Below, piece after piece: positions 26,970-50,833 of a DNA stretch of 55,988 nucleotides (position 1 is the first letter of the stretch; each line of letters begins with the position of its first letter). The stretch is from contig JAFDYI010000003.1 of assembly GCA_018267475.1 (NCBI GenBank), positions 451-56,438 of the forward strand. Direction: 5' to 3'. The notes under the pieces were generated by a model. It saw only the letters and a program-made list of their open reading frames with translations. It made no database searches and had not been told where the DNA came from. This DNA is from Bacteroidota bacterium. GTDB taxonomy: Bacteria; Bacteroidota; Bacteroidia; B-17B0; Aurantibacillaceae. A program made the position numbers and the translations under genes.

Positions 26970-28562
26970 ATGTTATTAGAAAAAACAGGTATTCCTTTTA
27001 AAAAAAACACCTCTTTTACACCTCTTTTTTTAGATTATGTAAACGGAGCAGACCATCTGCGCCCTTTCTATGAACAAATGCCTACTCAAGAGGGTATCTT
27101 CTCTTTTGTAGCCCAAAACCCGTATCCCAATTTAGATAGAGTACTACTGCATAACGAATTGCTGAACCAAAATAAAAACGTACAGCTAAGCGATGCTTCA
27201 AAAAAAAATATAGATGTATTAAAAAATAAAAACACCTATACCGTTACCACCGGGCACCAACTTTGCTTAGCTACCGGTCCTTTGTATTTTATATACAAAA
27301 TACTTTCTTGCATTAACCTTTGCGAAATTTTAAATAAAAAAAACACCCATCAACATTTTGTTCCGGTATATTGGCTCGCTTCCGAAGATCACGACTTTGA
27401 GGAGATAAACCACCTGCATTTATTCGGTAAAAAAATAGTATGGCAAAGCAACCAAAAAGGCAAAGTAGGCTCTTTCTCTTTGCACGAGTTGCACAGCACC
27501 CTTGCCGAGATGCAGCAAGTATTAGGCACTACTAAACAAGCGCAAGAACTTTTTGATTTATTGCAGCACGCATACAGTCGGTCAAATTTAACAGAAGCTA
27601 CTCGTTATTTGGTAAACGAACTATTTGGCAACTATGGCTTAGTAATAGTAGATGGGGACAGCAACGTATTTAAACCACTTTTTATTCCTGAAATAAAAAA
27701 AGATGTGTTTGAAAACACTTCATACCAGCAGGTAAACAAAAGCACCTCGGCTTTACAACAGCATTTATACAACACACAGGTAAGTCCACGAGAAATCAAT
27801 GTTTTTTACACCGATACCCATATCCGTGAGCGCATAGTGCAAGAAGGTGGCACGTATAAAGTATTAAACACCCCGCTTGCTTTTTCAAAACAAGAAATGC
27901 AAAATTTGATAGAAGCAAGTCCCGAAAAAATCAGCCCTAATGTAGTGTTGCGCCCTTTGTATCAACAAAAAATACTGCCCAACGCGGTGTATGTAGGCGG
28001 CCCGGGCGAGCTGGCATACTGGCTGCAATACCAAGCCTTGTTTCAAGCCTACTCAATTCCCTTTCCTGTTTTAGTGCCCCGCAATTTTATTTTTTATCTT
28101 GAAAAAAATACAGCTCAAAAAATAGAAAAATTAGGATTGAAGCCGGAAGATTTTTTTGAAGAAAAAGACAAAATAATAAAAAAATATTTGTTGTTGCAGC
28201 AACCTTTTTCGCTACAAGAAACAAAAGAATTATTAAAAAAAGGATATAACCAACTAAAACAAGAAATAGGCGCTTTAGACAAAACACTGATAGCCGCTGC
28301 CGAAGCAGAAGAACAAAAAAACAGTAAAGGCATAGAAGCCTTAGAGCAAAAAGGAATAAAAGCACTTAAACAAAAAAACGAGCAGGCCATCAAGCAAATA
28401 GAAACGGTGTATGAACGCTTATTTCCGCAGCACATCCCACAAGAACGATATGGAAACTTTTTGCAATTAGCCCTCACCAATCCCTCTTTTATAGAAGATA
28501 TAAAAAACAACAGCAGTTCTTTTGTTTTAGAAAAAGAAGTGCTTCTTCTTTCTGAAAAATAA
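26970..28562 (+). CDS. bshC: Bacillithiol biosynthesis cysteine-adding enzyme BshC
   Basis: A 530-residue BshC, which joins cysteine to glucosaminyl-malate in the last step of bacillithiol synthesis in the cytosol. Family landmarks are TVTTGHQLCLATGPLYFIYKI near residue 95, FVPVYWLASEDHDFEEI near 130, YVGGPGELAYWLQY near 345, and a lysine-rich C-terminal coiled coil (about residues 400-480). The length is typical. The partners bshA and bshB are not in the window. Its presence says the cell uses bacillithiol as its low-molecular-weight thiol. Confidence 0.93.
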   Translation: MLLEKTGIPFKKNTSFTPLFLDYVNGADHLRPFYEQMPTQEGIFSFVAQNPYPNLDRVLLHNELLNQNKNVQLSDASKKNIDVLKNKNTYTVTTGHQLCLATGPLYFIYKILSCINLCEILNKKNTHQHFVPVYWLASEDHDFEEINHLHLFGKKIVWQSNQKGKVGSFSLHELHSTLAEMQQVLGTTKQAQELFDLLQHAYSRSNLTEATRYLVNELFGNYGLVIVDGDSNVFKPLFIPEIKKDVFENTSYQQVNKSTSALQQHLYNTQVSPREINVFYTDTHIRERIVQEGGTYKVLNTPLAFSKQEMQNLIEASPEKISPNVVLRPLYQQKILPNAVYVGGPGELAYWLQYQALFQAYSIPFPVLVPRNFIFYLEKNTAQKIEKLGLKPEDFFEEKDKIIKKYLLLQQPFSLQETKELLKKGYNQLKQEIGALDKTLIAAAEAEEQKNSKGIEALEQKGIKALKQKNEQAIKQIETVYERLFPQHIPQERYGNFLQLALTNPSFIEDIKNNSSSFVLEKEVLLLSEK

Positions 28563-38704: not shown

Positions 38705-38844
38705 ACGGATTGGATTTATCGAACTTTATTAATGATTTTCAAGCAATTAGAACGCTAATGGACATTCTCCCTCGGATACCCTAAGCGGCAAGGTTTCGAA
38801 CTTTTACTTTTAGGGACAAAATTAGAGCGTGCCAGAAATACAAA

Positions 38845-40005
38845 TTAGGGTCTGATCCTTAAAATGTAAATCGAAACACCAACCGCAACAATACCACTTA
38901 TTAAAAATGTTGCAGATGGATTAAAAGAGTACCACAACAAGCCGGCAATCGAACTTGCAAGCATAGTTGCAATACTTTGAAAGGCTGTATAAGTTCCTAT
39001 AGCTGTGGCTGTATTTTCCTTTTTGCAAATATTGGTGATCCATGCTTTAGCGATTCCTTCGGTTGCAGCTGCATATACTCCATATAAAAAAAACAAAGCA
39101 ATGAATATTATTTTGTTTTCGGTGTAAGCCATTCCTAAATAAACTACTGCAAATAAAACCAATCCTGAAATAAATATTTTTTTCATTCCGATTTGATCGG
39201 CTAAAATTCCTAATGGATATGAAAACAATGCGTAAATCAGATTATAGAATACATAAACACCAATAACGGTGGCATCATTATAGCCAGCCTCTTTGATTTT
39301 CAATAACAGAAACACATCGGAGCTATTGAACAAAGTAAATACCAATAAAGCACCTACCAATTTACGATAGGTTGCAGGGCTTTCTTTCCAATATCTAACA
39401 AAATCCAATAACCTTGTTTTCGTTTTTGGTTTCGTTTGTTCCTTCTGTTTTTCCTTTATGAAAAATGTAATTGCGATAGCAGTGATGCCCGGAAAGAAAG
39501 CAATAAAGAAAAGCGTTTTATAATCGTTTGGATAATATGCCAAATAAACCAAAGCCGCCAATGGCCCGATTACTGCGCCTAATGTATCCATTGAACGGTG
39601 AAAACCAAATACACGTCCTTTTGTCTGCGGAGTTGCTTCATCGGATAATAAGGCATCTCTTGCACCTGTTCTTACCCCCTTACCAAGTCGGTCAATGGTT
39701 CTCGAAAAGAAAATCCAAAGTGGGTATGTAAACAAAGCCATCATTGGTTTTGAGATTGCACTAAAAGCATATCCTATTTGAACGAATGGTAAACGCTTTC
39801 CTTTGTTGTCGCTTAAATTCCCGAAGTAGCCTTTACTTAAACCCGCTGTTGCTTCTGCAAAGCCTTCTAAAACTCCAATTAAGATAATGGAAAAACCTAT
39901 TGTCTTTAAATAGATCGGCATAACCGGATAAAGCATTTCACTTGCTACATCGGTAAATAAACTCACTAATGACAGTATCCAAATATTTCTTGTAATTATT
40001 TTCAC
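38845..40005 (-). CDS. MFS transporter (last gene of the metal operon)
   Basis: A 386-residue major facilitator with about 12 membrane segments. The motif-A-like loop after TM2 reads GNLSDNKGKRLPF, and SRTIDRLGKGVRTGARDALLSDEA is a well-conserved segment of a drug/metal-associated MFS subgroup. The start overlaps the end of the HMA-CDF gene by 4 bases, so it is translationally coupled to it. Substrate unknown; a metal complex or small-molecule export role is inferred from context. Confidence 0.85.
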   Translation of the reverse strand: MKIITRNIWILSLVSLFTDVASEMLYPVMPIYLKTIGFSIILIGVLEGFAEATAGLSKGYFGNLSDNKGKRLPFVQIGYAFSAISKPMMALFTYPLWIFFSRTIDRLGKGVRTGARDALLSDEATPQTKGRVFGFHRSMDTLGAVIGPLAALVYLAYYPNDYKTLFFIAFFPGITAIAITFFIKEKQKEQTKPKTKTRLLDFVRYWKESPATYRKLVGALLVFTLFNSSDVFLLLKIKEAGYNDATVIGVYVFYNLIYALFSYPLGILADQIGMKKIFISGLVLFAVVYLGMAYTENKIIFIALFFLYGVYAAATEGIAKAWITNICKKENTATAIGTYTAFQSIATMLASSIAGLLWYSFNPSATFLISGIVAVGVSIYILRIRP

Positions 40006-40817
40006 TTTGATAATTTTAATATTCTCAAGGCTCCGATTATTACGAAGCCAAATACAATAGTTCCTGTAATTAAATCAGGCCATTTGGAATTGAAAAAATA
40101 AACCATGATTCCGGCAGCAATAACGCCAATGTTTATTAACACATCATTACTTGTGAAAATTAAACTTGCCTGAATATGAGCTTCTTTACTTTTAGATTTT
40201 TGCAGTAATATTAAAGAAGTTGCATTTCCAATGAGTGCTAAACTGGAAATTACAACCATCGTTTGAAATACAGGAACTTCTTCATAACCCAAGAATCGTT
40301 TAATAACTTCAAGCAATCCTAAAATTGCTAGAAGAATCTGTAAATACCCGCTGATTTTGGCTATTTGTTTTTTCTTTGCAACTGCATGACCAATGGCATA
40401 TAGACTCAACGCATACACAATCGAATCTGCAAACATATCTAAGCTGTCTGCCACTAAACCCATTGATCTCGAAATAAAGCCGTAAGTAATTTCCAATACA
40501 AAGAAGAAGAAATTAATCACTAAAACACTCCATAATAATATTGTCTCGCTCTTTTCATTTGAAGAAATATTTTCTTCATTTTGAATTGAGGAGATAAGTT
40601 TTGAATCTAATTTTAATTCTTCAATACTCTTATTAATGATGTTTACATCTGCGTTATGAAACACGAATAATTTTCTCTTAGGAATATCAAATACAAGTTT
40701 TTCAATACCCTCAATGTCAGAAAGCTTCATGCGAATTAATTGCTCCTCGGAAGGGCAATCCATTTTGGTAATATTAAATTCTGATTTAAACACTTTCAAA
40801 TTTACTTTAATTTCCAT
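40002..40817 (-). CDS. CDF-type cation transporter with N-terminal HMA-like domain
   Basis: A 271-residue protein. Residues 10-75 look like a heavy-metal-associated fold with a single cysteine in ITKMDCPSEE (Cys21). Residues 92-268 are six membrane segments of the cation diffusion facilitator family, with Asp124, Asp127 and Asp131 in LVADSLDMFAD and Asp224 in TSNDVLINIG as candidate metal ligands. It ends right after TM6 and so lacks the usual cytoplasmic CDF C-terminal domain; the N-terminal domain may replace it. It probably exports a divalent or monovalent metal from the cytosol. It overlaps its neighbours by 16 and 4 bases. Confidence 0.85.
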   Translation of the reverse strand: MEIKVNLKVFKSEFNITKMDCPSEEQLIRMKLSDIEGIEKLVFDIPKRKLFVFHNADVNIINKSIEELKLDSKLISSIQNEENISSNEKSETILLWSVLVINFFFFVLEITYGFISRSMGLVADSLDMFADSIVYALSLYAIGHAVAKKKQIAKISGYLQILLAILGLLEVIKRFLGYEEVPVFQTMVVISSLALIGNATSLILLQKSKSKEAHIQASLIFTSNDVLINIGVIAAGIMVYFFNSKWPDLITGTIVFGFVIIGALRILKLSK

Positions 40818-43045
40818 CTGATTCCTATATACGTTTCTCTACCTCTTGTAGGCCCCCATACAGATGAAGTGTCAAAATATTTGCTAAACGGATCTTGCCA
40901 ACTTACAATCGGTCTTTTCTGTCTGAAATCAAAAATATTTTCACAACCCACATAAACATCAAATCGCTTCCATTTGTATGTTATTTGAGCATTTAAAAGT
41001 GTGTAAGGTTTTGAGTAATCCGCATGTTGATATTCTATTGGGTTGGTAGCCGTGTTTGGCAGCCTTTGTTTGTCATACCAATGAGCATTCACATCAAAAT
41101 ACCATTTGTCGTTTTTAGGGCGATAGGAAATTGTAGCCATTACACGATTTTTAGGATTGAATGGCAATAAATATTTTGAGCCACTAATCTCTCTGTAAAC
41201 ATCAAGGTAATTGTATGCGGTTCTAAATTCCAACACTTTAAAGAATTTAAAATTGGCTTCTATTTGTAAACCGTTTGAAATGGAAGCTCCTGTAAAGTTC
41301 TTTATAATTGCTTTTGTAGGATCGCTATCGTAATCTGGAAAGAACTGATTAAAGAATCGTGTTTGATAAAAATCCGCACTAAAATTTCCACTTACTTTTT
41401 CTTTATCAAATGTGTAAGTGTAGTTAAGCCCCCAATTCAATCCTTGTTCAGGCTTCAACTGTTCAGCAAAAACAATGTCTCTTGAGCTAACAAGAAGATT
41501 TATATTTTCGCTGAATAAATTTACCTGTCGCCATCCTGTTCCAATCGATCCTCTCACTGTATTGTTTTTATTGATGCTGTATTTAATCAAGGTACGTGGA
41601 GTAAATATAGAGCCGAACTTATTATGATTATCTAGTCTCGCACCAACAATCCAAACTACTTTGTCTTCGTTCCAATGAAAGGTATTCTCAGCAAAAACTC
41701 CAGGAACAACTTGTTTGGTATTATAAAGTCCTGCATAAGTTCTGTGTAAAGAAGTATCTGTGAAACTTACATTTTCATTCAAATCCTGATAACGGAAACT
41801 CACACCATATTTTAATAGATGTTGTTCTTTCCAAAGCCATTCGTGTTGCAGATTAGCGTATCCATTTAATTGCTCCGCATCGTATTTTACGGTTCCGAAA
41901 TATGAATTTTGTTTTTGGTAAAACCCTGAAGCAATAAAAACTAATACATGATCGTCATTAAAACGATAACCAGTTTTAGTATAAAGTTCGGGCTGACTAT
42001 AATTTACTGTTTGACCATAAACACTTGTACTTCCTTTTTCATTATTTGGATTGAAGAATGTTTGTCCGCCAATACGCTGCTCGTTTAAATAGCGAATACC
42101 AATGTGGGTAAACACACCTTTTTTATTTTCATTCCCATACTTCCATCGGTTGTAAGCCATGTATCGTGTAAGTAATGGAAGATCAAGAAAATTGTCCTTG
42201 TCCCTATCAAACTTGTTGGCAGGTTGTACAGTATGAAAAGTAAGTAGCGTACTCCATTTATTATTCTTACCTAATGAAGCAGAATAGTTTGCATTAAAAT
42301 GTTTCTCCATAAAATTATTGAGGTAAACATTAAATAATAACTTCTCAGCTTTGTCGGGCATTTTAGGAAGTACATTTATTTGTCCGCTAATACTTTCATA
42401 ACCTTGCAATACAGAATTAGCTCCTTTCGATACAAAGATGTTATCTACCAAAGTACCTGGAATACTGCTAATTCCATAGGTAAAGGATAAACCTTGAAAC
42501 ATAGGCATACCATCAAATAATAATTGATTGTAAACTCCTGATAAACCCAAAATCCTCAACTCCTTTGAGTTGGTTATCACGTTGGTTGTTTGAGGTTGAA
42601 CAGAGGCTTGTGTTTCAAAGCACCCAGCTAAATCACAACAAGCAGACTTGGTCAATTCCTTTTGAGTAATGACCTCTGTTTTGATTGGATTGATATTTGA
42701 AATATATGCTGTTCCCTGCTCGCCAACAACAGTTACCTCTTTAAGTTGCTTAACTCCTTTAAGTGTAACGCTTATGTAGGTTTGATCTGTTATAAGAACA
42801 GTATCTGAATCATAGCCAACGAAACTAAAAACTAATCGCTTGTCAGCAATGCTATCGGTCTTTATTTCAAATACGCCATTTTCATTGGCACTTGCACCAA
42901 TGGTCGTTCCTAACCAATGTATTGCTGCACCGGGTAAAATTTCTTTTTCATGTTCACCTTTGCCAAATACTTTTCCCTTCAGGGTTTGTCCCTGAATAGA
43001 AAGCACCATCCCTAAAAGGCAAAGGGTGGTTAGTAGGGCTTTCAT
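40802..43045 (-). CDS. TonB-dependent outer-membrane receptor with cysteine-bearing plug
   Basis: A 747-residue receptor. Residues 1-20 are a signal peptide and 21-97 a CarboxypepD-like domain. A plug from about 115 to 230 includes ELRILGLSGVYNQLLFDGMP and SGQINVLPKMP. A long barrel follows, ending IGIRWKLK. At the plug start, SACCDLAGCFET places Cys136, Cys137 and Cys142 together, which is unusual for receptors and suggests soft-metal binding. The operon mates (secreted HMA protein, HMA-CDF, MFS) support metal or metallophore traffic. Direction (uptake versus sensing) is not shown. Confidence 0.9.
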   Translation of the reverse strand: MKALLTTLCLLGMVLSIQGQTLKGKVFGKGEHEKEILPGAAIHWLGTTIGASANENGVFEIKTDSIADKRLVFSFVGYDSDTVLITDQTYISVTLKGVKQLKEVTVVGEQGTAYISNINPIKTEVITQKELTKSACCDLAGCFETQASVQPQTTNVITNSKELRILGLSGVYNQLLFDGMPMFQGLSFTYGISSIPGTLVDNIFVSKGANSVLQGYESISGQINVLPKMPDKAEKLLFNVYLNNFMEKHFNANYSASLGKNNKWSTLLTFHTVQPANKFDRDKDNFLDLPLLTRYMAYNRWKYGNENKKGVFTHIGIRYLNEQRIGGQTFFNPNNEKGSTSVYGQTVNYSQPELYTKTGYRFNDDHVLVFIASGFYQKQNSYFGTVKYDAEQLNGYANLQHEWLWKEQHLLKYGVSFRYQDLNENVSFTDTSLHRTYAGLYNTKQVVPGVFAENTFHWNEDKVVWIVGARLDNHNKFGSIFTPRTLIKYSINKNNTVRGSIGTGWRQVNLFSENINLLVSSRDIVFAEQLKPEQGLNWGLNYTYTFDKEKVSGNFSADFYQTRFFNQFFPDYDSDPTKAIIKNFTGASISNGLQIEANFKFFKVLEFRTAYNYLDVYREISGSKYLLPFNPKNRVMATISYRPKNDKWYFDVNAHWYDKQRLPNTATNPIEYQHADYSKPYTLLNAQITYKWKRFDVYVGCENIFDFRQKRPIVSWQDPFSKYFDTSSVWGPTRGRETYIGIRWKLK

Positions 43046-43392
43046 TTTTTTTCAGGTACAGCTTTAAATGTTTTTACCTTGTATGGTTTCTCTTCAGGGT
43101 TGTCGCAACTCGGTGCATTCTCAATAGCAGTTCTGATTTGTTTTTCAGTGATAATAGCTGTATGATATTTAACAGTAAAAATAACTGCTTCTGATTTTAC
43201 TTCAGAGTAAGTCACATCGTCAATGCCCTCTTCATTTACCAATTTCTTTTTTATGATTGGCAAATCCATTGTACAAGAGATTCCTTTTATTTTTATAGTT
43301 GCTGTTTTAAGTGTATCGTTTGCTTGGGCTTTAGCAGGATTTGTTGCACCTAAAGCAATAAATAGTGCGATGATTGAAATTATCGTTTTCAT
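43042..43392 (-). CDS. Secreted heavy-metal-associated (HMA) domain protein
   Basis: A 116-residue protein with a signal peptide (SIIALFIALGATNPAKAQ) and one HMA domain at about residues 30-100. The metal loop reads GISCTMD, so it keeps one Cys (Cys40) where classic HMA domains have CxxC. A second Cys lies in APSCDNPEE. It is likely a periplasmic metal chaperone. It overlaps the TonB receptor start by 4 bases and opens the HMA-TonB-CDF-MFS operon. Confidence 0.85.
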   Translation of the reverse strand: MKTIISIIALFIALGATNPAKAQANDTLKTATIKIKGISCTMDLPIIKKKLVNEEGIDDVTYSEVKSEAVIFTVKYHTAIITEKQIRTAIENAPSCDNPEEKPYKVKTFKAVPEKK

Positions 43393-43429
43393 TTTTTTAG
43401 TCTAATTGAATTAAATAATGATGACACCA

Positions 43430-43472
43430 TGCGTAACAAAACGCACAATGACATAAACCTTTACGGTTTATG
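43430..43472. terminator. Two adjacent hairpins between the Cys-rich gene and the HMA operon
   Basis: TGCGT (43430-43434) pairs with ACGCA (43441-43445). CATAAACC (43452-43459) pairs perfectly with GGTTTATG (43465-43472) around TTTAC. On the plus strand an A/T-rich tract follows; on the minus strand, the direction of the genes, no T run follows. They may act as an attenuator or an mRNA-end structure. Confidence 0.4.
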
Positions 43473-43494
43473 ATTTATTATTTTTAAAAAACAA

Positions 43495-43836
43495 TTAAGC
43501 TAGTTTAGGCGGTTGCCAAAAGTCAGGAGTATACTGAGAGATTGAATTCTCTATTCTTGAAATAAGTATTGCTTTTTGAATAACTGGTGGCTCAACACCA
43601 AAGAAGCCGCTTTTAACGGTAAAACCCAAGCAACAACCGCATGATTGAAAAGGATTGCAGTTTTGGTCTTTACAATCTCCGTCTTTCTTTTGAGTGTCTT
43701 TTGGCGCATCCTCTTCCTCATCACAACAAGATGAGCCACAACATTCCGAAACAGGCTTTTCAGAGGCTAATACAAACATTGGCTGTACGGTTAAAAGTAC
43801 AACTACGAATGTTAGTATATATGAAAGCCATTTCAT
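43495..43836 (-). CDS. Secreted cysteine-rich protein, putative metal binder
   Basis: A 113-residue protein with a signal peptide (residues 1-24). The mature part has two clusters: ECCGSSCCDEEED and DCKDQNCNPFQSCGCC. The C-terminus TPDFWQPPKLA recalls small secreted proteins encoded beside cation-efflux genes in Bacteroidota (DUF6660- or HYC_CC_PP-like), but the family is unconfirmed. Metal sequestration in the periplasm is a reasonable inference. A TACCTTTG promoter lies 7 bases before the ATG, so it is transcribed ahead of the HMA operon. The gap upstream (43852-44053) holds only an imperfect GGGGTA/TACCCC hairpin (43960-43985). Confidence 0.75.
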   Translation of the reverse strand: MKWLSYILTFVVVLLTVQPMFVLASEKPVSECCGSSCCDEEEDAPKDTQKKDGDCKDQNCNPFQSCGCCLGFTVKSGFFGVEPPVIQKAILISRIENSISQYTPDFWQPPKLA

Positions 43837-43843
43837 TGAATCA

Positions 43844-43851
43844 CAAAGGTA
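43844..43851 (-). promoter_or_regulatory. TACCTTTG promoter box of the Cys-rich gene
   Basis: An exact minus-strand TAnnTTTG match 7 bases before the ATG at 43836. It gives a nearly leaderless transcript. Confidence 0.6.
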
Positions 43852-44053
43852 TGAATTTAACTTAAATTATTTGATCTTTTCTGCACTAAAAAAGAAGAGT
43901 ATCATCCTCCTTTTACTATTCTTTGTCAATATACAGATTTGGCTGGGTAAGGAATACAAGGGGTATTTTAGTAAATTATTACCCCTATCGCCGTCCACTA
44001 TTCATTACTTTAATTCTTTCATTCCGCACCATTCTGTCCCTAGATAAATTGTT

Positions 44054-44371
44054 TTAGTTTTCAAACCATCCAAAAGTTCCGCCACAAAGCCAAGTGGCAT
44101 ATTTAAAACCAAATTCTTGCAGTTTCTCTGCTGCTTGTGTCGACCGTCCTCCGCCTTTTCCACAAGCCGTAATTACAAAATCACTTTTATCAAATAATTT
44201 ACTTGCCAATTCTATTTCTAAAATAGCAATATTAATTGCACCCGGTATATGAGATTCCTCATACTCTTCTTTGCTTCGCACATCAAGTATTTTAACTTGC
44301 TGCTGTTTAGTTTCTATTAAATGCTTTAACTCTTTAAGAGCAATGCAATTGTTCGGTTGTACACTCTCCAT
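44054..44371 (-). CDS. Rhodanese-like sulfurtransferase
   Basis: A 105-residue single rhodanese domain. The N-terminal DVRSKEEYEESHIPGAINI and the active loop TACGKGGGRS (Cys70) are intact. It carries persulfide sulfur or detoxifies thio-compounds in the cytosol; no signal peptide is present. The start overlaps the upstream MFS gene by 38 bases in another frame, which implies coupling. Confidence 0.9.
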   Translation of the reverse strand: MESVQPNNCIALKELKHLIETKQQQVKILDVRSKEEYEESHIPGAINIAILEIELASKLFDKSDFVITACGKGGGRSTQAAEKLQEFGFKYATWLCGGTFGWFEN

Positions 44372-45617
44372 TTTTTTTGTTTTTAAACCAATTCAAAAAC
44401 TTAATTGAATTATCATTTTTACACTTCATGCGGTAAAGAATAATAACTGATGACGCAACTGTTAATAAGCCGATTACAATTATTGAAGCGTTAATGCCTA
44501 ATGCATCCGCAATTATACCCGTTAAAATTGCGCCAATGGCGTAACCAGAATCTCTCCATAATCTGAATATTCCCAAACTTTTTGCCCTGTCGTGTGGATT
44601 AGTGTTCTCTGCAATTGTAGCAAGAAATGTTGGGTAAACCATTGCTGTTCCCCAGCCCAAAACAACCGAAAGAATAATGTAATGAGTCATTGTTTGAGCC
44701 CAAGGCATTATTAATAAAGCCAGTCCTTGTAAAAACATTCCGGTGAACAACAAATCCTTCTTACAAAAATGATCTGCCATCTTTCCTGTTACTAATTGTC
44801 CTAGTCCCCATACGGCAGGATAGGTTGCTGTTATGATCCCAATTTGTTCAATACTAAAATTCTTGTGAGCCAATAATATTGGAAATATTCCCCATACCAT
44901 TCCATCATTTAGATTATTGATCAACCCTGCCTGCGTTACTGACCCAAGATTTTTATCCTTCCATGTAGTATCCCAAAAAATATTTTTTAGTAAAGGAACA
45001 TTGCTTGATGTGCTTTCTTTGGCAACATGATGTTTAGTGTCTTTTATAAATAACCAACTTCCGAAAAACCCAAGCAATGATAAAGCTATTCCAATAAAAA
45101 ACGGGTACGGTCTAACCCCATATTGCCCGGCAACCCATCCAGTAAGAAAGGCTACAATTGCGACTGATAGATATCCTGCAAACTCATTTAATCCCATTGC
45201 GAAACCACGTTGCTTTTCTCCAACAAGATCAATCTTCATCACAACTGTGCTACTCCAAGTTAATCCCTGATTGATACCTAACAATATATTTACAGCAATG
45301 ATCCAATTCCAATTTGGTGCATACATTAAAATAAGAGGGACAGGAAGAGCAAATAGCCATCCAATAACAAGAAGATTTTTTCTACCAATTTTATTTGCAA
45401 GCGCACCTGTATAATAGTTTGTGATGGCTTTTACTAATCCAAATACAATTATAAAAGATAAAATTGCAGTTTTAGCTGCAATATGAAATTCTCCCTCTGC
45501 GATTTTTGGAAGTATTGATCTTTCAAGGCCAACCATACCCCCAACAAAGGCATTAATAATTACAAGCAGGGTAAACTGCTTCCAATTTTCTTTCAGACCA
45601 AGTTTTACGTTTTCCAT
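44334..45617 (-). CDS. MFS transporter coupled to rhodanese
   Basis: A 427-residue major facilitator with 12 predicted membrane segments. Landmarks are YTGALANKIGRKNLL after TM2, KIDLVGEKQRGFAMGLNEFAGY, and RAKSLGIFRLWRDSGYAIGA in the C-half. The tail ends KKNGECTTEQLHCS with two cysteines. The link with the downstream rhodanese and upstream Crp-like gene suggests sulfur-compound or metalloid/drug transport, without a specific substrate. Confidence 0.87.
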   Translation of the reverse strand: MENVKLGLKENWKQFTLLVIINAFVGGMVGLERSILPKIAEGEFHIAAKTAILSFIIVFGLVKAITNYYTGALANKIGRKNLLVIGWLFALPVPLILMYAPNWNWIIAVNILLGINQGLTWSSTVVMKIDLVGEKQRGFAMGLNEFAGYLSVAIVAFLTGWVAGQYGVRPYPFFIGIALSLLGFFGSWLFIKDTKHHVAKESTSSNVPLLKNIFWDTTWKDKNLGSVTQAGLINNLNDGMVWGIFPILLAHKNFSIEQIGIITATYPAVWGLGQLVTGKMADHFCKKDLLFTGMFLQGLALLIMPWAQTMTHYIILSVVLGWGTAMVYPTFLATIAENTNPHDRAKSLGIFRLWRDSGYAIGAILTGIIADALGINASIIVIGLLTVASSVIILYRMKCKNDNSIKFLNWFKNKKNGECTTEQLHCS

Positions 45618-45684: not shown

Positions 45685-46248
45685 TTACTTTTGTCCTCGA
45701 ATTCGGCTAAGGCTTACAGGAGTGATGCCAAGATAGGATGCAATATACTTTAACGGAACTCGCTTAAGTACGTCCGGTGCTTCTTTTATTAAGGAATTAT
45801 AGCGTTCCTCTGCTGTGTGAAATTGTATGCTTTCAACTCTGTTAACTGTATCAACCAAAGCTGCTTCAAATATTTTCCTGAACAGACTTTCGATATCATG
45901 GTGCTTATCGTAGAGTTTAAAAAGTTCACTTGAATTAATAGCAATCAATTCTGAGTCCTCAAGCACCTGAATTGCTTTTTTAGAAGGTCTTCCGGTAAAT
46001 AAACTCTCAAACCTAACAACCATGTTGTTTTCAAAAGAAAAACTCTCGGTGATATCAATATCTTCTTTAAAATAATAGATTCTTGCTACCCCTTTTTTCA
46101 AAAAGTAAATTGTTTTGCACGTGTGACCGATTGATTGAAGTTCGTGATTCTTTTTAATTGCAATTACTTTACAAATTTCAGCAATAGCTTTCTCTGCCTC
46201 TTTAGAAAGCGAATTATATTTTTTGAAATAATGAAATAGAGAAGTCAT
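45685..46248 (-). CDS. Crp/Fnr-family transcription regulator
   Basis: A 187-residue regulator with a cyclic-nucleotide-type sensor fold at residues 10-120 (TIYFLKKGVARIYYF, then VVRFESLFTGRPS) and a C-terminal HTH. The HTH reads VPLKYIASYLGITPVSLSRIR, a common Bacteroidota Crp form. No iron-sulfur cysteine set is present. It likely controls the MFS-rhodanese unit directly downstream. Confidence 0.87.
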   Translation of the reverse strand: MTSLFHYFKKYNSLSKEAEKAIAEICKVIAIKKNHELQSIGHTCKTIYFLKKGVARIYYFKEDIDITESFSFENNMVVRFESLFTGRPSKKAIQVLEDSELIAINSSELFKLYDKHHDIESLFRKIFEAALVDTVNRVESIQFHTAEERYNSLIKEAPDVLKRVPLKYIASYLGITPVSLSRIRGQK

Positions 46249-46653: not shown

Positions 46654-47277
46654 TCAAGCACAACAAGATTTTCCAGTTTCTTGAATAGGTGGACACGGAA
46701 CCGATCCATAGCTGCAATACACACAGCAATCTCCTTGCTTTGGTTTTAACTGAGCTTTGCAGTTCTCACATTCATAAAAATATTGACAGGCATCTGTAGG
46801 CATTGTTTCTTCTTTTTTATGTCCGCAGTTGGGGCATGTAATGGTTGACTGGAGAATTACACTTTTGTTTTTCATAAGATTAAATATTTTTGTTTCATAA
46901 TAATTCATCACTCCGGAAATCATTAATCCAATCATTCCAAGGTTAGTAAATTCATTACCCTCATAAGAACTAAAATAATTGTAGAATACCAATCCAACGG
47001 ATAAAGCAGCAATAATAATCGCAATTATCTTTCTATGATAAAGAAAAGAGAAGACGTTTCCAATAAATGCAAGAAATGAAAAGCCAAGGAAAACATACAT
47101 AGTAGAATTTCCAAATAACTCAAATGAACTATACCCAAGACTTGAGACTAATACTCCAAAGAGAGGAAAACAACAAGGTGAGGTGATTGCAGTTAATACA
47201 ATTCCTATTAACCCGATTTTTTCTATTGTTACCTTATTGTTCACAATTGTTTTTCTTATTCCTATCGGGAATTTCAC
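46654..47277 (-). CDS. MerC-type membrane protein fused to a GDCCVxC domain
   Basis: A 207-residue fusion. Residues 15-135 carry four membrane segments, with SPCCFPLFGVLVSSLG near residue 33 as in MerC mercury transporters. Residues 138-207 carry a zinc-ribbon-like domain: TCPNCGHKKEETMPTDACQ, then YECENCKAQL and GDCCVYCSYGSVPCPP, matching the GDCCVxC domain that in some relatives contains selenocysteine. Here all positions are cysteine. It probably moves or binds a soft metal. It overlaps the small membrane gene upstream by 44 bases. Confidence 0.85.
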   Translation of the reverse strand: MKFPIGIRKTIVNNKVTIEKIGLIGIVLTAITSPCCFPLFGVLVSSLGYSSFELFGNSTMYVFLGFSFLAFIGNVFSFLYHRKIIAIIIAALSVGLVFYNYFSSYEGNEFTNLGMIGLMISGVMNYYETKIFNLMKNKSVILQSTITCPNCGHKKEETMPTDACQYFYECENCKAQLKPKQGDCCVYCSYGSVPCPPIQETGKSCCA

Positions 47278-49867: not shown

Positions 49868-50181
49868 ATATTCTTTGATATTAGTTTAAATTTTACTTTT
49901 TGTTCATTCTGAATAATATTCACTTCTGCACAATGACTCAGGTAGGTATATTCATAATCAAGATTAAGATTGACGGTTTCTCCTGAAACTTGTTGGAAGA
50001 TTCCCGAACATTCCAATTTCCCTTCAGGACTATATCTTGCTATTATAAAGCCATTCCCTTTACTTTCTATATTAAACCACGATCCACAACCTTCACCGCT
50101 CAACCATTTAACACTTTCCGGCAAATGAATTGGTCTACTTGGACATGGTACGATTTTATGATATACTTCTGCTTGCTTCAT
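49864..50181 (-). CDS. Conserved small protein, unknown function
   Basis: A 105-residue protein without signal peptide, rich in beta strands. Notable residues are CPSRPIHLPESVKWLSGEGCGSW at the N-terminus and LSHCAEVNI near the end, giving three or four cysteines in a small domain. It overlaps the DUF6695-like gene start region by 26 bases and the thioredoxin gene by 4, so it is part of the same transcript. I do not recognise a family. Confidence 0.7.
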   Translation of the reverse strand: MKQAEVYHKIVPCPSRPIHLPESVKWLSGEGCGSWFNIESKGNGFIIARYSPEGKLECSGIFQQVSGETVNLNLDYEYTYLSHCAEVNIIQNEQKVKFKLISKNI

Positions 50182-50833
50182 TTGAGAATGGGATAGGAAT
50201 AAATTTTGGTTTCAGAACAGGTGAATTACATGTAACACCAATGATAGCATAAGTTGAGAGAGTTTTTACATTACCAATTGGTGTAGGACTTAATGTTTTT
50301 GGATAATTCAACACTAATTTATAATACCACTTTGGAGAACCACTTACAATTACAGTATTTACGAATCGGGAGCAGTTAGTTCCATTTGGTAAAAATGGCC
50401 CATAAGGAATTGGTGATGATAATTGCATTTGATTAGCTTTATCAAATGCTTTATTGAAGTCAACATCGCAATACGAAGCATGCAAGCTTCCACTGCCATG
50501 ACAAGATTCGTTTTTGTAAAGTTCCCATAATATCTGATTGTAATTTGTTAGTCTGCCATTTTTATCAAAAAACGCTTTGCTCTTTATTTCGAGATCATGG
50601 TCAGTATAAGCACTTCTAACTCGTCCATGTTGATAGGGTGCATGGTAGCGACCAAAATCGAAATAGTGGCAGTTTCCGGATTCCTTTTCAATTAGAACAA
50701 CTGCTGCATGCCCAACTTTGTAATAGTTAGATTTATTAATGCCGAACCATTTTAAAGGCTTGTCGTACCAAGCCCCGGCTTGTTTACATAAAGTTTCAGG
50801 CCATGCCAGTGCTATTGCTATTCCGTTATACAT
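50156..50833 (-). CDS. DUF6695-like protein
   Basis: A 225-residue protein resembling DUF6695, a family of unknown function in Bacteroidota. Visible features are GIAIALAWPETLCKQAGAWYDKP at the N-terminus, KVGHAAVVLIEKESGNCHYFDFGRYH with a His that could act with Cys like a cysteine peptidase/NlpC-type core, and NGTNCSRFVNTVIV. GHAAVVL-type and NCSRFV-type segments are reminiscent of papain-like folds, but catalysis is unproven. It overlaps the NRDE gene by 8 bases. Confidence 0.7.
   Translation of the reverse strand: MYNGIAIALAWPETLCKQAGAWYDKPLKWFGINKSNYYKVGHAAVVLIEKESGNCHYFDFGRYHAPYQHGRVRSAYTDHDLEIKSKAFFDKNGRLTNYNQILWELYKNESCHGSGSLHASYCDVDFNKAFDKANQMQLSSPIPYGPFLPNGTNCSRFVNTVIVSGSPKWYYKLVLNYPKTLSPTPIGNVKTLSTYAIIGVTCNSPVLKPKFIPIPFSNEASRSIS

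Follow-up and report, generated by a model that had tools for sequence, protein, structure and literature searches.

The window analysed here, a 55,988-nucleotide stretch of a Bacteroidota genome (assembly GCA_018267475.1, contig JAFDYI010000003.1), encodes in close succession an MFS transporter, an HMA-CDF transporter, a TonB-dependent receptor with cysteines in its plug and a secreted HMA protein, raising the question of whether these genes form one metal path through the outer membrane, periplasm and inner membrane. The four reading frames are present as initially annotated, all on the minus strand and overlapping by 4, 16 and 4 bases, but the operon they were taken to constitute has five genes, the additional one encoding a Cys-rich protein outside the annotated stretch. 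We place the operon start at this gene because a promoter element and the boundary of a transferred block are found there (table 1). The locus is a real, conserved and mobile soft-metal operon, its core and its probable regulator are not as initially described, and its most informative gene is the arrest-peptide-like leader that heads it. On balance, we favor the view that this is a mobile operon for soft-metal uptake under nascent-chain metal control exerted via its own first gene.

Table 1. Features of the five-gene operon, in positions of the window
Feature	Coordinates	Strand	Basis
MFS transporter gene, cargo	38845..40005	-	Pfam MFS_1
HMA-CDF transporter gene without C-terminal domain, cargo	40002..40817	-	Pfam Cation_efflux
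TonB-dependent receptor gene, ACCDLAGC plug	40802..43045	-	Pfam CarbopepD_reg_2 and Plug
Plug cysteines C136, C137 and C142 of the receptor	42620..42640	-	Conservation
Exported HMA-fold protein gene, CxxD (C40, D43) and second invariant Cys C96	43042..43392	-	Profile, fold, conservation
Stem-loop-bearing intergenic region, leader to HMA gene	43393..43494	-	RNA fold
C-terminal WQPPKLA-stop of leader, proposed ribosome-arrest motif	43495..43518	-	PP-tail count, Cys-to-PP distance
Cys-rich exported leader gene, 113 aa, DUF6660-like, first gene of operon	43495..43836	-	Homologues in 57 loci
Bacteroidota -7 promoter element TACCTTTG, 7 nt before leader ATG	43844..43851	-	TAnnTTTG enrichment; sequence reading
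Transferred block of exactly five genes	38716..43863	.	89.5%-identical alignment to L034 1311-6459

Searching 84,980 species genomes with the ACCDLAGCFETQ receptor recovered 194 relatives, and 80 of their loci were read together with one plasmid (81 loci). Because the plug served as bait, the set is to some extent preselected for a conserved plug; receptors recovered by whole-protein search carry the same plug dyad, and its conservation there does not stem from the bait. An HMA gene lies upstream of the receptor in 67/81 loci and a Cys-rich gene beside it in 57/81, and no other gene is common in the vicinity. Flavobacterium granuli DSM 19729 (L064) is one of the carriers of the cassette. Among the receptor loci read, a CDF of the window family adjoins the receptor in the window, L046 and L115, and an MFS gene is present in L046, L107 and L114, with another MFS match in L060. 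In 296 genomes across the phylum, for which the best three receptor candidates per genome were scored, the window is the one case in which a listed MFS place adjoins a CDF or receptor place. Given how few receptor loci carry the CDF and MFS genes compared with the HMA and Cys-rich genes, the core of the operon is the leader, the HMA gene and the receptor gene, and the CDF and MFS genes are cargo. The neighborhood search, which had been proposed for the plug together with HMA and CDF genes, finds receptor and HMA together but the CDF and MFS genes mostly apart from the receptor. For these two genes this is an outcome that the initial account had named as refuting it. We reject the four-gene operon as a conserved unit, and a four-gene path across the envelope is not supported as a general system.

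Another known metal gene occurs near 15 of the 65 long loci compared with 2 of 40 control regions, which were arbitrary and not taxon-matched (p = 0.015), and most cassettes have no known metal or resistance gene nearby. The commonest known metal neighbor is an ATPase of the ZntA type (Zn/Cd/Pb), found at 8 loci. A ResA/TlpA-like thioredoxin gene, often placed between the HMA and receptor genes, was also observed near the receptor in L056 (7498-7989) and eight other loci, and possibly provides the thiol reductase for a relay between the two proteins.

The receptor is a TonB-dependent transporter according to its Pfam Plug match and the fold of its beta-barrel, and its AlphaFold model (pLDDT 86.5) matches Cir/BtuB/FepA. 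The three plug cysteines recorded at the outset are confirmed as C136, C137 and C142 within SACCDLAGCFET. C136 and C137 are conserved in 82/82 window-type receptors and in 26 receptors of a sister clade (26 loci), in which the plug reads CCNLSES and the HMA partner carries CxxC; C142 is conserved in 79/82 and is replaced by Ser in the sisters. C701 and H655 were gained in the window clade, and several Met and His residues of the sisters are absent from it. Membership of the receptor in the OprC group was rejected, the plug having no CxxxM and its cysteines being arranged otherwise.

Pfam found no HMA domain in the HMA protein of the window, and the NCBIfam matches to MerTP, CopZ and MerP are weak. 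A profile of its relatives matches the HMA domains of copper ATPases in the PDB, and its AlphaFold model (pLDDT 80) folds as an HMA protein with a copper-ion-binding HMA protein as the best Foldseek match; on these profile and model matches we assign it the HMA fold. C40 and C96 are invariant (68/68), and CxxC is absent, the position of its second Cys being an invariant Asp (CxxD in all 28 aligned HMA members). The description of a secreted HMA domain that keeps a single metal Cys missed the invariant C96. In all classifiable pairs, ACCDxxGC plugs occur with CxxD HMA proteins (68 to 0) and CCNLSES plugs with CxxC HMA proteins (28 to 0), counts that are inflated by relatedness given that each clade may stem from one ancestor. 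Two rows scored as CxxI (L007 and L111) are pattern artefacts from the same genome region type, in which the HMA protein reads GLTCKGD (CKGD).

The covariation of plug and HMA motif in these sequences fits proteins that may act as partners. Together with their tight co-occurrence, it supports the receptor-HMA link that had been proposed, and the soft-metal reading gains support alongside it. A more tentative extension, to which we give somewhat less than even weight, is a matched two-part code for metal uptake in Bacteroidota, in which plug Cys pattern and HMA motif would change together and set metal specificity, a DUF6660-like or HYC_CC_PP leader would sense the metal as a nascent chain and gate expression, and the CxxD version would pass from genus to genus as a mobile operon. 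The covariation makes metal specificity directly testable by part swapping.

A leader homologue accompanies the window-type receptor in 57 loci. The leader of the window (below 150 aa) shares its strand with the next gene, and leader sequences begin with a hydrophobic N-terminus that resembles a signal peptide. Two cysteine motifs, CC...C and CNPFxxCxxC, are conserved. All 57 leaders end in PP plus 2-7 residues, exactly three residues in 49 of them, compared with 5 of 787 other ORFs that have PP within their last 8 residues; a Trp in the tail is conserved besides PP. The distance from the cysteine of PFxxC to PP is 42-46 in each of the 56 leaders that have the motif. No Pfam or NCBIfam model, DUF6660 included, matched the window leader itself, and in a mixed alignment (A6) DUF6660 was matched by 11 of 31 proteins (best E 2e-6) and DUF2946 weakly by 2 of 31 (best E 0.007). 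We found no literature on DUF6660 or on the sister receptor.

The promoter motif TAnnTTTG shortly precedes the Cys-rich gene in 37/56 loci (shuffled mean 1.7), as opposed to 2/68 for the HMA gene and 2/82 for the receptor gene, and its position before the leader only identifies the leader as the first gene of the operon. In the window, as in many relatives, the element ends about 7 nt before the leader ATG (43837-43851), a distance so short that the leader gene may be transcribed with little or no 5' untranslated region. Upstream of the leader no operator palindrome recurs among the loci, the -7 element alone being enriched.

The region between leader and HMA gene has a predicted RNA fold with z = -4.2. 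Local hairpins occur in 46/49 homologous leader-HMA intergenics, usually starting 8-30 nt past the leader stop and ending about 30 nt short of the HMA start, which they do not cover, and these regions fold more stably than intergenics used as controls (p = 2e-4). Intergenics between HMA and receptor genes in the relatives are structured even more strongly (mean z -3.2), RNAalifold returned zero consensus pairs for the leader-HMA alignment, and for these two reasons we regard control of the downstream gene by this RNA structure as suggestive only. In the window, the HMA and receptor genes overlap where the relatives have a stem-loop intergenic, and Rfam matched no RNA family or riboswitch within the window.

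The closest described counterparts of the leader are CruR and CutF. CruR of Bordetella pertussis, which belongs to DUF2946, is encoded at the start of an operon for a TonB transporter, and copper relieves the ribosome arrest through which it acts; 45 residues separate its CXXC from RAPP, which lies three residues from the end (PMC9426467). CutF of Rhodobacter follows a related route with an intergenic stem-loop and a PP-type C-terminus (PMC9973294). The window operon resembles CruR-bfrG(CrtA)-bp2921 (PMC9426467, PMC12914433) in having a small exported Cys protein first, PP three residues from its C-terminus, a similar Cys-to-PP spacing, an intergenic region before the next gene and a TonB-dependent metal receptor thereafter. 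It differs in that the leader is DUF6660-like with WQPPK rather than RAPP, an HMA protein stands between leader and receptor, CDF and MFS proteins are the partners in place of PepSY, and the plug of the receptor contains a Cys dyad that we did not find described in the literature. With CutF of Rhodobacter capsulatus cutFOG (PMC9973294) the leader shares first-gene position, a signal-peptide-like N-terminus, a Cys motif, a PP-type C-terminus and an intergenic stem-loop; unlike here, the downstream cutFOG genes encode a multicopper oxidase and a chaperone, and the stem-loop masks the Shine-Dalgarno sequence, which the window-type hairpin usually stops well short of. Because first-gene position, Cys motif, PP tail and Cys-to-PP spacing are hallmarks of CruR and CutF, we read the leader as a putative arrest peptide, most likely a nascent-chain metal sensor of the CruR/CutF type.

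Leaders of this general kind are already known in Bacteroidota, as the CutF study counts many CutF-like proteins there, with TonB-like genes among their neighbors (PMC9973294). In the operon described here, a CruR/CutF-like leader precedes a TonB receptor and its matched HMA partner. Like the copper receptor OprC (PMC8610252), the window receptor is a TonB receptor with plug cysteines that putatively serve a soft metal. OprC uses a plug CxxxM and a barrel HxM, a site not recognized in the window receptor, whose Cys dyad is located nearer the start of the plug, between predicted helices 1 and 2. The nearest relative is a sister cassette of Bacteroidota consisting of an HYC_CC_PP protein, a CxxC HMA protein and a CCNLSESFETN receptor, with the same three-gene order in the neighborhoods read and the same plug dyad. 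It differs in the CxxC of its HMA protein and in a receptor with Ser142, Val701 and the extra Met and His residues, and it is far commoner, a receptor match being present in 69/87 family genomes, mostly in the wider sister clade.

From these features we predict that the receptor carries a thiophilic metal, free or chelated, inward over the outer membrane and that the paired periplasmic HMA protein would receive it by thiol exchange through C40, D43 and C96. The leader cysteines would bind metal while the C-terminal WQPPKxx is still inside the ribosome. Binding would alter the arrest on the leader, and this in turn would determine whether or not the downstream genes are expressed. Where present, the CDF may export surplus metal of the Cd/Pb/Zn class. 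If correct, this would provide a function for the uncharacterized DUF6660-like and HYC_CC_PP small-protein families and for the unannotated TonB receptors of one large clade. It would also mean that common metal-import operons of the Bacteroidota are headed by a gene for nascent-chain metal sensing.

The cargo CDF has the HMA-like N-terminus ascribed to it (Pfam E 3.5e-4, slightly under the curated cut-off), and the reported lack of a C-terminal domain also holds, its Cation_efflux match stopping at residue 268/271. Since the whole subfamily stops at the same point, the window CDF is not truncated. The family keeps the DxxxD of TM2 (D127xxxD131) and D225 of TM5, with Phe in place of the TM5 His of Zn CDFs. 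HMA-CDF proteins occur on 381 plasmids at E up to 1e-40, and relatives adjoin cadR in four of the plasmid neighborhoods read, from Acinetobacter, Enterobacter and Pseudomonas; no cadR was found beside HMA-CDF in the neighborhoods read from Moraxella, Pasteurella, Emticicia and Flammeovirga. The cadR-CDF-lspA cassette by ISPpu12 has a CDF of the same family, about 41% identical, but there it is a single transporter beside cadR, with an OprC-like receptor and a DUF2946 gene nearby on the opposite strand. On an Enterobacter IncHI2 plasmid (L217, 513-3288), an OprC-like receptor (GACPARM, CxxxM kept) and a DUF2946 gene were seen beside cadR and an HMA-CDF relative.

In 7 of 45 CDF loci, the HMA-CDF gene comes after a DUF6660-like leader and a quite different receptor (22-24% identical), and all seven leaders end in WxPP plus 3 residues, which suggests that the association between a leader-receptor operon and this CDF arose more than once. 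Leader, TonB receptor without plug cysteines and HMA-CDF constitute a second operon type, seen in Flavobacteriia (L148, L150, L152, L157, L158, L167 and L042). A general role of the MFS as a metal gene was rejected, none of the searched-for metal genes being near 16 chromosomal homologues; one plasmid copy in Hymenobacter abuts a heavy-metal P-type ATPase.

The operon has a close counterpart on a contig from a different genus of the same family (L034, the same contig as L046). Window positions 38716-43863 align with L034 1311-6459 in one uninterrupted nucleotide alignment of 89.5% identity with unrelated flanks. In the window these hold genes for a rhodanese and a second MFS protein, and in L034 ACR3, an arsC-like gene and ArsR genes. 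Cassette proteins are 79-97% identical between the two, compared with only 67% and 56% for two non-cassette proteins of the same genomes. Given these identities and flanks, the five-gene block was most likely transferred horizontally as one unit, as judged from sequence comparison. A plasmid origin of the receptor was rejected, matches being found in only 4 plasmid records, one of them with >50% identity.

These observations bear on three other accounts of the operon. The Cys-rich protein could be a stable secreted metal carrier or buffer whose WQPPK tail docks on the HMA protein or the receptor, leaving the core unchanged. The leader does look exported and Cys-rich, and the conservation of Trp as well as PP in the tail would suit a docking site. 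We nevertheless consider this unlikely, in view of the arrest-peptide pattern of first-gene position, near-leaderless promoter, a constant Cys-to-PP distance and PP right at the C-terminus; studied arrest peptides are moreover short-lived (PMC9973294, PMC9426467). It is less likely still that all five genes make up a resistance island for efflux or sequestration of a toxic metal along one envelope path. Plasmids of Enterobacter, Acinetobacter and Pseudomonas do carry HMA-CDF relatives next to cadR, and a 95% relative adjoins ACR3, arsC-like and ArsR genes. TonB receptors, however, import, nearly all cassettes are without an adjacent CDF or MFS gene, and most have no known resistance gene nearby.

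Uptake remains our favored reading, and the sequences point to two candidate metals, copper or one of the Zn/Cd/Pb class. The cassette may be a variant of the sister CCNLSES cassette, richer in Cys, that brings in copper for cuproenzymes, a serious contender that we nevertheless rate as falling a little short of an even chance. CruR and CutF both sense copper, OprC uses plug Cys for copper, and the sister receptors have several extra conserved Met and His residues; the window-type receptor, by comparison, is without these residues, and the second Cys of the HMA CxxC has become Asp. An Asp in the metal motif of an HMA domain counts for the Zn/Cd/Pb class and is unusual for Cu(I). The CadR-linked CDF and the ZntA-type ATPase neighbors (8 loci) point to the same class.

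Several other genes of the window may be mentioned. The rhodanese (44054-44371) and second MFS (44334-45617) genes are followed by a Crp-like regulator gene (45685-46248), and L037 has homologues of these genes, likewise ordered, next to a sister cassette. A gene for a MerC-domain protein (46654-47277) is located a few genes upstream of the operon, and homologues occur near several cassettes. Because BshC, an enzyme of bacillithiol synthesis, is encoded at 26970-28562, the host probably makes this thiol buffer, which is relevant to soft metals. The product of 50156-50833 strongly matches the Pfam family TseH-like (E 9e-50) and is unrelated to the operon.
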